Shown: positions 53,792 to 61,457 of the stretch, piece by piece
How positions within the stretch are numbered: the first letter of the stretch is position 1
How the letters are laid out: each line of letters starts with the position of its first letter
NCBI GenBank assembly: GCA_905479065.1
Contig: CAJQLB010000027.1
Location: forward strand, 62,001 to 126,000
Reading direction: 5' to 3'
Length of the DNA: 64,000 nucleotides
Source: an uncultured Flavobacteriaceae bacterium
GTDB lineage: Bacteria; Bacteroidota; Bacteroidia; Flavobacteriales; Flavobacteriaceae
Notes under the pieces: model-generated
What the model was told of the DNA's origin: nothing
Databases searched by the model: none
The model's input: the letters and a program-made list of their open reading frames with translations, nothing else
Made by a program: the position numbers and the translations under genes

Positions 53792-53832
53792 CTTTTCTGT
53801 CTATAAAGCATTCATAATCTTTGTGATATGTT

Positions 53833-53840
53833 TACTTTTG
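53833..53840 (+). promoter_or_regulatory. TACTTTTG -7 element for rnpA
   Basis: Exact TAnnTTTG match; the final G is eight bases before the ATG at 53849, so the leader is only a few bases. The alternative ATG at 53828 lies upstream of the box and cannot be the start. Confidence 0.6.
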
Positions 53841-53848
53841 TTTTAAAC

Positions 53849-54220
53849 ATGAAAGCATCCTTCTCAAATATTGAAAAACTTAAAAGTAAGGCGATAATTG
53901 ATGCGCTTTTCACAAACGGGAGCTCAATTAGCTGTTTTCCGTTACGGTTTGTGTACCTACAAAAAGACTTCCCAGAAAATATTACTCTTAAATGCGGTGT
54001 TTCGGTTAGTAAAAAGAAGTTTAAACGCGCGGTAGATCGTAACAGAATAAAAAGACTAATGAGAGAAGCCTACCGACTAAACAAAAACACCTTTATTGAT
54101 AAAATTCCATCACAACAAGCATTAATGATTTTGTATATTGGTAAAGACATGCCCTCAAGCGCACAAATTAACCAAGCAATGTCGGCACTATTTCAAAAGT
54201 TTATCAAAACAACTTGTTAG
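53849..54220 (+). CDS. rnpA: Ribonuclease P protein component
   Basis: Protein cofactor of RNase P that trims tRNA 5' ends. The RNR motif KFKRAVDRNRIKRLMREAYR is intact (about residues 52-71). N-terminus KSKAIIDALFTNGSSISCFPLRF is typical. I use the ATG at 53849 because a promoter box precedes it directly; 123 aa is normal. rpmH, its usual neighbour in other phyla, is not here. The S41 protease gene follows after 13 bases. Confidence 0.93.
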   Translation: MKASFSNIEKLKSKAIIDALFTNGSSISCFPLRFVYLQKDFPENITLKCGVSVSKKKFKRAVDRNRIKRLMREAYRLNKNTFIDKIPSQQALMILYIGKDMPSSAQINQAMSALFQKFIKTTC

Positions 54221-58114: not shown

Positions 58115-58552
58115 TTAACAAGGTGTTATAGGAATTTTATTTACACGATTTTGATGTCTTCCACCTTCAAATTTAGTTTCTAAAAATGTATTAACTATTT
58201 GAAGTGCTTGTGTTATGGAAGTATAACGAGCAGGAATGCAGCATATATTTGCGTTATTGTGTTGTCTTGTAAGTTTTGTTATCTCATTCATCCAACAAAT
58301 ACCTGCACGAATATTTTGATATTTATTAGCAGTCATTGCTACACCATTTGCACTGCCACAAATTAATATACCAAAATCAACTGCGCCAGACTCAACATCT
58401 TTCGCAACAGGATGAACAAAATCAGGATAATCTACACTATCTAAAGTATCTGTTCCATAATTCATGATAACTAAACCTTTTGCTTCTAAATGTTTTACAA
58501 TAGCTTTTTTGTATTCAGGGCCTGCGTGATCGTTTCCTATAGAAATCTTCAT
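58115..58552 (-). CDS. rpiB: Ribose-5-phosphate isomerase B
   Basis: Interconverts ribose-5-phosphate and ribulose-5-phosphate. KISIGNDHAGPEYKKAI has the phosphate-binding residues, ICGSANGVAMTANKYQNIRAGIC the catalytic cysteine and anion hole, and HNNANICCIPARY completes the pocket. At 145 aa it is standard length. A perfect TAACTTTG promoter lies about 30 bases upstream. First gene of a probable rpiB-CDF-GNAT transcript. Confidence 0.94.
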   Translation of the reverse strand: MKISIGNDHAGPEYKKAIVKHLEAKGLVIMNYGTDTLDSVDYPDFVHPVAKDVESGAVDFGILICGSANGVAMTANKYQNIRAGICWMNEITKLTRQHNNANICCIPARYTSITQALQIVNTFLETKFEGGRHQNRVNKIPITPC

Positions 58553-58581
58553 AATAGTATATAATATCTGATTGCGAACAT

Positions 58582-58589
58582 CAAAGTTA
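58582..58589 (-). promoter_or_regulatory. TAACTTTG -7 element for rpiB
   Basis: Exact TAnnTTTG match on the minus strand, start near 58575-58578, 23-26 bases before the ATG. Confidence 0.55.
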
Positions 58590-59169
58590 ATAATTGCTAA
58601 TAAGTAAGCATAACTTATAATACCTTACTTATTCATAATTTTTATTTTTAATAAATCTATTATAAAATAGTTTTTATACTTAATGTTGATAAGTATCCTT
58701 AAAATTATTAAATACTTGTTAATAAGTGTTCGTAAAAAATAAGAAGTAAATTATTGAGAATCCAATTAATTTTACAAGGTAAAAGTAAAATTTATAAACC
58801 TAAATTTTTAGTCTCTTTTTAAAAACTTATTATAAACATTAAATTTATTCATATAAACATTTTTTATAAAAATACTTATAAAAATAATACTGTGAATAAG
58901 GGTTATTAACAACTGTGAATATATTAACTAATCTTATTATAAATGAGTGAATTAAGTATATTATAAGTTGTTAATAGAGTAGTATTAAAATAAATTCAAA
59001 TAAAATATTAAAATAGTTATAAAGCTTATTAACAGACTATAATAAACATCATTTATTTGAAAATTTTTAAAGAAAAATATAATTATAGGTATATAAATGT
59101 TAATAAATTGATTTTATTCTATTTTTATAGGCTTAATACCAGGGAAATATTGATTTAATATATAAACCT

Positions 59170-59177
59170 TAGATTTG
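59170..59177 (+). promoter_or_regulatory. TAGATTTG -7 element for rnr
   Basis: Exact TAnnTTTG match; predicted start near 59181-59184, giving an 85-base leader to the rnr ATG at 59268. Confidence 0.5.
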
Positions 59178-59267
59178 CAGAAACTTAATAACCTTTCTTC
59201 ACCTAAATTAAGTCTTAAATTTTAAATAGTCCTTAACTTTAAGGAATAGAATATGATAACATAATAA

Positions 59268-61457
59268 ATGACAAGAAAGAAAAAAAGGAAACCTTCACAT
59301 AATAGAATTTCCAACTTAACAAATACAATTCTAAGTATTTTAAAAAAAGAAAGAACCAAAACATTTAACTATAAACAAATTGCTGCTATACTTGGTGTAA
59401 ATGATGCAAGTAGTAGAAATCAAATCATAAAGAAACTTCAACAACTTAAAATAAATAAAGAAATTGAAGAAGTAGATCGTGGTAAATTTAAGGTGATTAT
59501 AAATACCGAATATCATACAGGTCATGTAGATATAGCTTCAAGAGGATCTGGATATATTATTTGTGATGATTTTGATGATGATATATTTATTACATCAAAT
59601 AATATGAATAAAGCACTTCATGGAGATGAAGTCGAATTTTATGCTTATAAACGTAGAAAACGCGGTAAGATAGAAGGAGAAATTACAAATATTATTCAAC
59701 GTGCAAAAAGTGAATATGTTGGGGTAATCCAAATTCATAAAAGTTATGCGTTTGTTATTCCTGATGGAAACAAAATGTATACTGATATTTTTGTTCCAAT
59801 AAATAAAACGAATAAAGCAGAGGAAGGAGATAAAGTACTCGTATCTCTTGAAGATTGGCCAGAAAAAGCTGACTCTCCTTATGGTCGCGTATTAAAAGTT
59901 CTTGGTAAACCAGGTGAACATAATACAGAAATTCATGCAATACTTGCTGAATATGGATTACCATTAGAATTTCCTCATGATGTAGAGGAATTCGCTAATA
60001 ATATTGATACTTCTATACGAAATGAAGAAATAAAAAAACGTCGTGACATGCGACAAGATTTAACTTTTACTATAGATCCAAAGGACGCAAAAGATTTTGA
60101 TGATGCTTTATCATTTAAAGTATTAGAACACAATTTATATGAGATAGGAATTCATATTGCAGATGTTTCGCATTATTTAAAAGAAGGAACTATTTTAGAC
60201 AATGAAGCTTATGAGCGCGCTACAAGCGTTTATTTAGTAGATAGGGTAGTACCAATGTTACCTGAAATACTATCAAATGGAGCATGTTCCTTAAGACCAC
60301 ATGAAGAAAAGTACACGTTCTCAGCTATCTTTAAAATAAATGATAAAGCAGAAATTAAAGACGAGTGGTTTGGTAGAACGGTAACTTATTCAGATGCACG
60401 ATTCGCTTATGAAGAAGCTCAAGCTATCATAGAATCTAAAACAAATAATATTCCAAAAGAAGTGTCATTAACTGGTAGTGATTATAAAGCTAATCAAGTA
60501 ATTGCGGATGCTATTTTAAAAATGGATGAACTAGCAAAAATCATGCGTCGTAAACGTATGAGTTCTGGTGCAATTTCTTTTGATAAAGTAGAGGTTAAGT
60601 TTAATTTAGATGAAGAAGCTAATCCAGTAGGTGTTTTTTTTAAAACAAGTAAAGATGCTAATAAACTTATTGAAGAATTTATGTTATTAGCAAATAAAAA
60701 AGTAGGTGAATTTATAGGAAAGCAAAAGAAAACCTTTGTTTATCGTGTTCATGATGAACCAGATGATAGTAAACTTGCTACATTACAAAATGTCGTTAAA
60801 CGCTTTGGTTATAAACTAGATTTTAAAGATAGAAAAAGCGTGTCTTCTTCATTAAATAATTTATTGAAAGATGTCAATGGAAAAAAAGAGCAAAACCTTG
60901 TTGATACCTTGACGATTCGTACCATGAGTAAAGCTGAATATTCGACACACAACATTGGGCATTATGGTTTGGCTTTTGATTATTACAGTCATTTTACTTC
61001 TCCTATAAGACGGTATCCAGACGTCATGGCACATCGTTTATTACAACATTATTTAGATGGAGGGAAGTCTGCAAATACTGATGTTTATGAAGATAAATGC
61101 AATCATTCAAGTAATATGGAAAATATTGCTACAAAAGCAGAAAGGGATTCTATTAAATACATGCAAATTCGTTTTATGGAAGATCATAAAAATAAAGAAT
61201 TCATGGGTGTTATTTCAGGTGTGACTGATTGGGGAATTTATGTTGAAATTATAACTAATAAATGCGAGGGTATGGTAAGTGTTAGAGATATGAAAGATGA
61301 TCATTATGTTTTTGATGAAGATGTCTATGCATTAGTGGGATATAATCATAAAAAAATGTACCAACTGGGAGATGAAGTTGTAGTTAAAGTTAAAAAAACT
61401 GATTTAATTAAAAGACATTTAGATTTTTTATTAATAGGAAAACATAATAATAGCTAA
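59268..61457 (+). CDS. rnr: Ribonuclease R
   Basis: Processive 3'-5' exoribonuclease that degrades structured RNA. Order of domains: basic N-terminus (MTRKKKRKPSHNR) and winged helix (ILSILKKERTKTFNYKQIAAILG), two cold-shock domains, RNB catalytic domain with DPKDAKDFDDALSF (about 268-281) carrying the metal-binding aspartates, HYGLAFDYYSHFTSPIRRYPD (about 565-585), and a C-terminal S1 domain (FMGVISGVTDWGIYVEI..GMVSVRDM). At 729 aa it matches the family. The coding sequence is noticeably more AT-rich in third positions than genes at 49-55 kb. Confidence 0.96.
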   Translation: MTRKKKRKPSHNRISNLTNTILSILKKERTKTFNYKQIAAILGVNDASSRNQIIKKLQQLKINKEIEEVDRGKFKVIINTEYHTGHVDIASRGSGYIICDDFDDDIFITSNNMNKALHGDEVEFYAYKRRKRGKIEGEITNIIQRAKSEYVGVIQIHKSYAFVIPDGNKMYTDIFVPINKTNKAEEGDKVLVSLEDWPEKADSPYGRVLKVLGKPGEHNTEIHAILAEYGLPLEFPHDVEEFANNIDTSIRNEEIKKRRDMRQDLTFTIDPKDAKDFDDALSFKVLEHNLYEIGIHIADVSHYLKEGTILDNEAYERATSVYLVDRVVPMLPEILSNGACSLRPHEEKYTFSAIFKINDKAEIKDEWFGRTVTYSDARFAYEEAQAIIESKTNNIPKEVSLTGSDYKANQVIADAILKMDELAKIMRRKRMSSGAISFDKVEVKFNLDEEANPVGVFFKTSKDANKLIEEFMLLANKKVGEFIGKQKKTFVYRVHDEPDDSKLATLQNVVKRFGYKLDFKDRKSVSSSLNNLLKDVNGKKEQNLVDTLTIRTMSKAEYSTHNIGHYGLAFDYYSHFTSPIRRYPDVMAHRLLQHYLDGGKSANTDVYEDKCNHSSNMENIATKAERDSIKYMQIRFMEDHKNKEFMGVISGVTDWGIYVEIITNKCEGMVSVRDMKDDHYVFDEDVYALVGYNHKKMYQLGDEVVVKVKKTDLIKRHLDFLLIGKHNNS

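Follow-up and report, generated by a model that had tools for sequence, protein, structure and literature searches.

The origin of Bacillus subtilis carries a basal unwinding system (BUS), in which DnaA boxes are found next to a triplet tract and to AT-rich DNA (PMC8287927, PMC6669920). The search rule for BUS, as given in the sections used here, calls for three or more 3'-NAN-5' triplets located within 16 bp of a DnaA box (PMC8287927). Ori-Finder 2022 has placed oriC at or beside mnmG in Mariniflexile litorale, where dnaA is said not to fit the skew (PMC11278836), and in a strain described in the Bizionia/Algorimicrobium paper (PMC12843772). The sections of both reports drawn on here name mnmG or its vicinity, but neither an rpiB-rnr gap nor a core element such as the one described below. 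In the open-licence literature, searched mostly by way of listings, no publication naming the rpiB-rnr gap or its core was found; DoriC may hold it.

A predicted oriC has also been described for Elizabethkingia meningoseptica, a member of another family than the host of the present sequence. It has a length of 649 bp, AT-rich unwinding elements and DnaA boxes, and it is far from dnaA, all of which resembles the locus reported here; it differs in having three boxes with at most one mismatch from TTATCCACA (PMC8994065, as far as the sections used extend).

The locus is the 715-bp gap between rpiB and rnr on contig C27 (191,450 bp) of an assembly with 48 contigs and 2.42 Mb. The window, i.e. the whole stretch of DNA that was analysed, has 64,000 nucleotides and corresponds to bases 62001-126000 of that contig. 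The host, a Flavobacteriaceae bacterium, is close to Psychroserpens; its rnr protein shares 89% identity with the one from a Psychroserpens strain (among the matches listed). We conclude, with high confidence, that the gap is the chromosomal oriC of this bacterium. The initial annotation had proposed a candidate oriC here, and this reading is now supported by the strand-composition switch on the host contig, by an excess of DnaA boxes and by conservation in relatives. In kind, the locus is ordinary (an oriC); what sets it apart is its precise placement and a family-specific, rigidly spaced core. The features are listed in Table 1.

Table 1. Features of the rpiB-rnr region (positions are those of the window)
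Feature	Position	Strand	Basis
rpiB, ribose-5-phosphate isomerase B, left flank, reads away from gap	58115..58552	-	TIGR01120, 148.0 bits (cut-off 138.65)
oriC region (rpiB-rnr intergenic gap), very probable	58553..59267	.	GC 17.2%, box excess over shuffles, own-contig skew change-point, sole place below 23% GC
DnaA-box-like TTATCAACA	58684..58692	-	
DnaA-box-like TTATTAACA	58717..58725	-	
DnaA-box-like TTATAAACA	58830..58838	+	
DnaA box TTATTCACA, only exact TTATNCACA of the gap, trio member 1	58891..58899	-	
DnaA-box-like TTATTAACA, trio member 2, left arm of inverted box pair	58903..58911	+	
DnaA-box-like ATATTCACA, trio member 3, right arm of inverted box pair	58914..58922	-	
Conserved origin core element, profile match	59013..59106	+	nhmmer E 2.9e-9 (own sequence in training set); family alignment
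ATAGTTAT at the head of the core (AAASTTAT in the family consensus), perhaps a weak DnaA box in tandem	59013..59020	+	alignment columns 29-37; putative function
Left core DnaA box TTATTAACA, ACA end towards AT tract	59026..59034	+	
Triplet tract CTATAATAAACATCATTT, A every third base, candidate single-strand DnaA-binding element	59037..59054	+	alignment; putative function
AT tract, candidate duplex-unwinding element	59055..59097	.	60 bp from 59069 are one of the window's ten least stable stretches; putative function
Right core DnaA box TTATTAACA, ACA end towards AT tract	59098..59106	-	
TAGATTTG, Bacteroidota -7 promoter-like, probably rnr promoter	59170..59177	+	similar word aligned there in most of 23 sequences
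rnr, ribonuclease R, right flank, reads away from gap	59268..61457	+	TIGR02063, 720.6 bits (cut-off 597.85)

As described initially, the gap is extremely AT-rich (83% A+T) and its flanking genes diverge. When 189 kb of the contig were scanned in 700-bp windows, values under 23% GC occurred only here. Four of the ten least stable 60-bp stretches of the window fall in the gap, which thus has easily melted AT-rich DNA beside its boxes. The single dnaA of the genome is encoded on contig C3, so that dnaA is not adjacent to the gap; its reported absence from the window is thereby confirmed. The gene rnpA, which had been noted as an origin neighbour, is indeed nearby (53828-54220; TIGR00188, 47.2 bits, cut-off 38.35), but the marker to consider is mnmG, which lies 14 kb to the right on the same contig. 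In other bacteria, the genes rpmH, rnpA and dnaA form a common arrangement. Since the window lacks dnaA, the proximity of rnpA to the origin probably does not reflect this arrangement. The gene that comes after rnpA codes for a C-terminal processing peptidase.

Rfam at the gathering threshold returned three tRNAs and nothing else for the whole window, and no terminator-like sites were found in the gap. Promoter-like matches number 15 in the gap, compared to 9.0 +/- 3.3 in shuffled sequence, a count that is uninformative in such AT-rich DNA.

About nine DnaA-box-like 9-mers had been counted initially; with up to one mismatch from TTATNCACA allowed, there are 10 (shuffle mean 1.21). The statement that most of them deviate from the consensus holds: only one is an exact TTATNCACA, and at least one such match also occurs in 10 of 300 dinucleotide shuffles. 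The variant TTATTAACA occurs four times (shuffle mean 0.11; four copies in 0 of 300 shuffles). For the relaxed word TTATNMACA, the gap holds the densest cluster in 189 kb of the contig, with seven copies against at most three elsewhere. The tight group TGTGAATAA / TTATTAACA / TGTGAATAT at 58891-58922 is present as described. A 16-bp direct repeat (ATAAGGGTTATTAACA / ATAAAGCTTATTAACA, 88%) at 58896-58911 and 59019-59034 links this trio with the left core box.

It could be argued, and the initial annotation had raised this worry, that these are chance words in AT-rich DNA. The base composition of the gap would favour such an explanation, as would the fact that 13 of 201 shuffled gaps contain a loose match (at least 30 positions) to the 50-base core consensus described below. 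The counts, when compared to the dinucleotide-shuffled control suggested at the outset, refute it: none of 300 shuffles of the gap reaches 10 sites, so that the worry is unfounded for the box set as a whole. The same is seen in relatives. The rpiB-rnr gaps of 67 genomes, including the host, contain 201 copies of TTATNMACA, while 20 shuffled sets average 26.4 and reach 36 at most. Together with the core patterns, which occur in none of the 20 shuffled sets (see below), this leaves the probability of a chance origin of the boxes negligible.

The 67 gaps derive from the best 80 of at least 581 relatives; rpiB was found in the stretch for 66 of these, and 14 were left out. Most of the 80 carry Flavobacteriaceae or Flavobacteriales names or the names of genera that belong there, and four are titled only Bacteroidia, Bacteroidota, Bacteroidetes or Cytophagaceae. 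In all 67, rpiB is on the minus strand and points away from rnr, and the gaps have 16-36% GC. An inverted box pair, searched with a looser pattern, is present in 21 of the 67 gaps (shuffle mean 0.1). The trio itself, written as a literal regular expression, was rejected as a family pattern because it matches only the host gap among the 67. The initial annotation had suggested looking for conservation of the cluster at 58891-58922 in related genomes; the region is conserved in relatives, the trio in its literal form is not. The best conserved part of the gap is an 80-bp element at 59013-59106, which the initial annotation had not singled out.

In this core, two DnaA boxes face inwards and span 80 bp from edge to edge; they enclose a triplet tract and an AT tract. 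The order seen in the alignment of 63 cores is AAASTTAT, the box TATNMACA, CTATAATAANCAYYATTT, the AT tract, and TGTKNATAA, which is the second box on the opposite strand. The regularity of the triplet tract is pronounced, columns 56, 59, 62, 65 and 68 carrying A in 100, 100, 95, 100 and 97% of the sequences. A strict pattern for the left half (25 bases) matches 51 of the 67 gaps and none in the 20 shuffled sets. The right box is present in all 51, and the outer length is confined to 78-81 bp, although 51-91 bp had been allowed. The complete bracket, in its strict form, matches 44 of the 67 gaps, again with no match in 20 shuffled sets; on the plus strand of the window it has one match, at 59027. 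When the inner distance is measured for any box pair, it peaks at 63 bp (30 cases), with six cases at 62 and seven at 64 (43 at 62-64); off this peak, 57 bp is found in five cases and 54 bp in two. The element is nearly symmetrical, as is seen at locus L108, where both strands of the core are matched by the profile.

The 50-base consensus finds the core in 63 of 67 gaps at a threshold of at least 30 matches, which shuffled gaps also pass at times (see above), and in 53 of 67 at a threshold of at least 34, which none of the 201 shuffled gaps reaches. About 10 of the 63 cores therefore rest on the alignment alone. Four loci scoring below 30 (L056, L069, L071, L081) were not part of the core alignment; the profile later recovered L069 and L071, and L056 and L081 remained unmatched. 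The E-values of the profile are circular for its 63 training loci. Outside these, it matches a core at five of the 14 rnr loci for which rpiB had not been found (L018, L045, L073, L074 and L075).

Across the family, the strict left-half pattern was found in 75 of 149 genomes, with 77 matches, and is absent at that strictness from the other 74; a reversed control pattern matches 2 of 149. The pattern is rare within a genome: 73 of the 75 have exactly one match, and the host has one in 2.42 Mb. As many as 72 of the 77 matches are located 368-2,118 bp upstream of rpiB, all of them on the strand opposite to it. The remaining five are distributed among G105 (two), G136 (one stray match), G063 and G116 (one each). 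In a sample of the class, 4 of 197 genomes matched, three of them from the same family (the host included). The fourth match (G298, locus L261) is inside an open reading frame and was taken as chance. Loci L230-L261 were recruited by the core pattern itself and are not an independent test.

One of the two matches in G105 (C1:588518, L237) is a half core, covering profile positions 2-57, on a contig that differs from that of rpiB. It may represent an origin that has moved, a duplication or a copy in decay.

The divergent arrangement of the flanking genes raises the question if the boxes might rather form a double promoter region for rpiB and rnr that is controlled by DnaA and has no origin function. 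DnaA also acts as a transcription factor in other bacteria (PMC8203912, as far as the section used extends), and a word ahead of rnr would fit a promoter. This word, TAGATTTG, resembles TAnnTTTG, the Bacteroidota -7 promoter motif. The core, however, persists where the gene arrangement is broken. An ORF of 385-551 codons separates it from rnr at five loci (L004, L006, L007, L011, L039), and ORFs of 311-476 codons separate it from rpiB at two others (L021, L027). In addition, G063 and G116 keep their match to the core pattern even though no rpiB match was obtained for them. On the evidence of this arrangement, the core is not a promoter element of either neighbour gene. A double promoter would also leave the strand-composition switch unexplained, and we consider it very unlikely.

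The initial annotation had suggested computing the cumulative GC skew to see whether its minimum falls at the gap. In its raw form, the skew has its minimum in the window at 44-46 kb, not at the gap. Raw GC skew was rejected as a guide to the origin, since gene orientation dominates it in these genomes and it misleads when used by itself. Because of this dependence, the skew of G versus C and of T versus A was computed instead at third codon positions, per gene and on the coding strand. A two-parameter model with a sign constraint was then fitted, which finds the position at which leading and lagging classes change places. A variant with the terminus forced opposite the origin was dropped, since it is symmetric when origin and terminus are swapped.

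On the host contig (189,450 of 191,450 bp, 165 ORFs), the best switch point is at 120 kb; 121 and 122 kb score just 0.9 log units less. The gap occupies 120,553-121,267 on that contig and thus matches the switch. The gain in likelihood over a model without a switch is 172.1, compared to a mean of 11.9 and a maximum of 36.7 in 300 permutations of the genes. The bootstrap interval (2.5-97.5%) extends from 106 to 124 kb and is wide on its left side, with 70.2% of the samples at 118-124 kb. The expectation of a skew signal at the gap was thus borne out on the host contig after correction for orientation, but not by the raw minimum, nor by two of five relatives.

These five relatives have complete genomes, which were sampled in stretches of up to 20 kb. 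In two of them, the switch is within about 3 kb of rpiB: the best origin is at 386 kb in G045 (rpiB at 388.8 kb; dnaA 305 log units worse) and at 1,122 kb in G132 (rpiB at 1,118.8 kb; dnaA without an allowed fit). In a third, G124, the switch at 2,424 kb is off by 29 kb from the core, which the bootstrap interval (5-95%, 2,402-2,432 kb) excludes; log-likelihoods relative to the best point are -16.0 for the core and -341.0 for dnaA. The other two lend no support. The switch of G055 is at 938 kb, 81 kb from rpiB at 857 kb, which is 25 log units worse (bootstrap 840-960 kb). For G099, whose skew is not usable, the fit gives 998 kb (bootstrap 440-1,000 kb), with rpiB 32.7 and dnaA 13.5 log units worse. 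In the genomes with a readable skew, dnaA is not the origin.

The neighbourhood of the gap agrees with the published predictions. Among 20 genomes with an mnmG match, 19 have this gene 8-56 kb from rpiB, and in G019 the interval runs across the record start; a 21st genome, G099, has no match. At such distances, the Ori-Finder reports point to the same neighbourhood as our analysis. They could also mean that the origin is near the gap but not in it, for example beside mnmG, with the gap serving as a DnaA-titration or regulatory site. This alternative draws on the same predictions (PMC11278836, PMC12843772, in the sections used), on the constant vicinity of mnmG and on G124, whose switch falls between core and mnmG and is slightly closer to the latter (25 kb). 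In the two genomes for which the comparison was computed, mnmG nevertheless fits far worse than the core: it is 61.4 log units below the best point on the host contig (mnmG at 135 kb), where the gap is about 1 below, and it reaches -81.7 in G124. Among the 117 stretches of the skew test (2.30 Mb, some of them deliberately centred around rpiB), the profile has three matches, each upstream of rpiB, in G132, G045 and G055; there is no other match, including the mnmG regions of the host contig, G045, G132 and G055. A marker gene that is tens of kilobases away, as reported by Ori-Finder, does not contradict an origin in the gap, and an origin near the gap but outside it, such as one beside mnmG, seems improbable to us.

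With the gap as oriC, a scheme for initiation can be proposed, modelled on those for the BUS (PMC8287927 and PMC6669920, in the sections used). DnaA, encoded elsewhere, would bind the boxes of the gap, including the inverted pair at 58903-58922 and, in the core, the boxes at 59026-59034 and 59098-59106. Starting at either or both of the latter, it would spread to single strands at the triplet tract, and it would open the AT tract. The helicase would then be loaded and forks would depart in both directions. With bidirectional forks from the gap, rpiB and rnr would each be co-directional with their own fork.

The core resembles the BUS of Bacillus subtilis in that its boxes adjoin a triplet tract and AT-rich DNA, and perhaps in a tandem of two boxes (AAASTTAT plus TATNMACA) ahead of the tract (PMC8287927, PMC6669920, in the sections used). 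It differs in several respects from what these sections describe. Inspection of the 63 aligned cores shows that the tract does not follow the DnaA-trio consensus 3'-GAT-5'. By the same inspection, three successive 3'-NAN-5' triplets stand in the 23 of 63 cores that have T at column 63, while in the sequence of the window the succession is broken at the third triplet. Beyond the AT tract, a second box points back towards the first at a fixed distance, and dnaA is not adjacent.

The DnaA of the host has 475 residues. It matches DnaA chains of known structure over domains I, III and IV, so that the box-binding domain IV is present. Its helix-5 motif is DHATV, while the best matching chain (8btg) and 1l8q have DHTTV. 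Position 435 of the E. coli protein makes a base-specific contact and is threonine in most of the sequences examined (PMC5043019, in the section used). Judged from the motif, E. coli T435 would align with the alanine of DHATV. One sample of family DnaA domains has DHATV in 40 of 40. In a phylum sample of 60 genomes, the motif was found inside a DnaA domain in 16, seven with alanine and nine with threonine; one genome of this family, G135, is among the 44 outside this count. Five of the seven alanine cases belong to this family and two to other families of the class, while none of the nine threonine cases belongs to this family. As alanine also occurs in those two genomes, the change is not exclusive to Flavobacteriaceae.

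The residue change may be linked to a relaxed box, although the relation is a correlation only. The 67 gaps contain 165 copies of TTATNAACA (20.6 expected from shuffles) and 36 of TTATNCACA (5.7 expected). Because the shuffles already favour A over C at box position 6, these numbers indicate that both forms are enriched, not that A is preferred.

It is tempting to speculate, though we lean slightly against it at present, that Flavobacteriaceae have a distinct type of origin. The unwinding tract would be clamped by two inward-facing boxes at a fixed inner distance of 63 +/- 1 bp, and DnaA filaments might extend from the two sides over a triplet tract of non-canonical type. The box would be relaxed at position 6, both TTATNAACA and TTATNCACA being used, and this would go together with the loss of T435 to alanine in domain IV of DnaA. 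The fixed two-box bracket and the change in DnaA make a mechanism of origin opening testable outside the model bacteria. An origin at sequence level is now available for a family in which 6 of 20 single-contig records start at dnaA. A sharply placed origin enables growth-rate estimates from metagenome coverage, oriC plasmids and analyses of replication strands.

Additional ORFs occur in the interval from core to rnr. In 18 of the 63 gaps with a core (e.g. L046), this interval holds an ORF of 79-95 codons on the minus strand. Seven copies are alike, and one of two tested weakly matches DUF2007 (E 1.3e-4, below the Pfam cut-off). The large ORFs between core and rnr at L004, L006, L007, L011 and L039 are on the plus strand, and those of L004 and L007, which were read in part, resemble by eye a repeat protein encoded beside the half core of G105 (L237).
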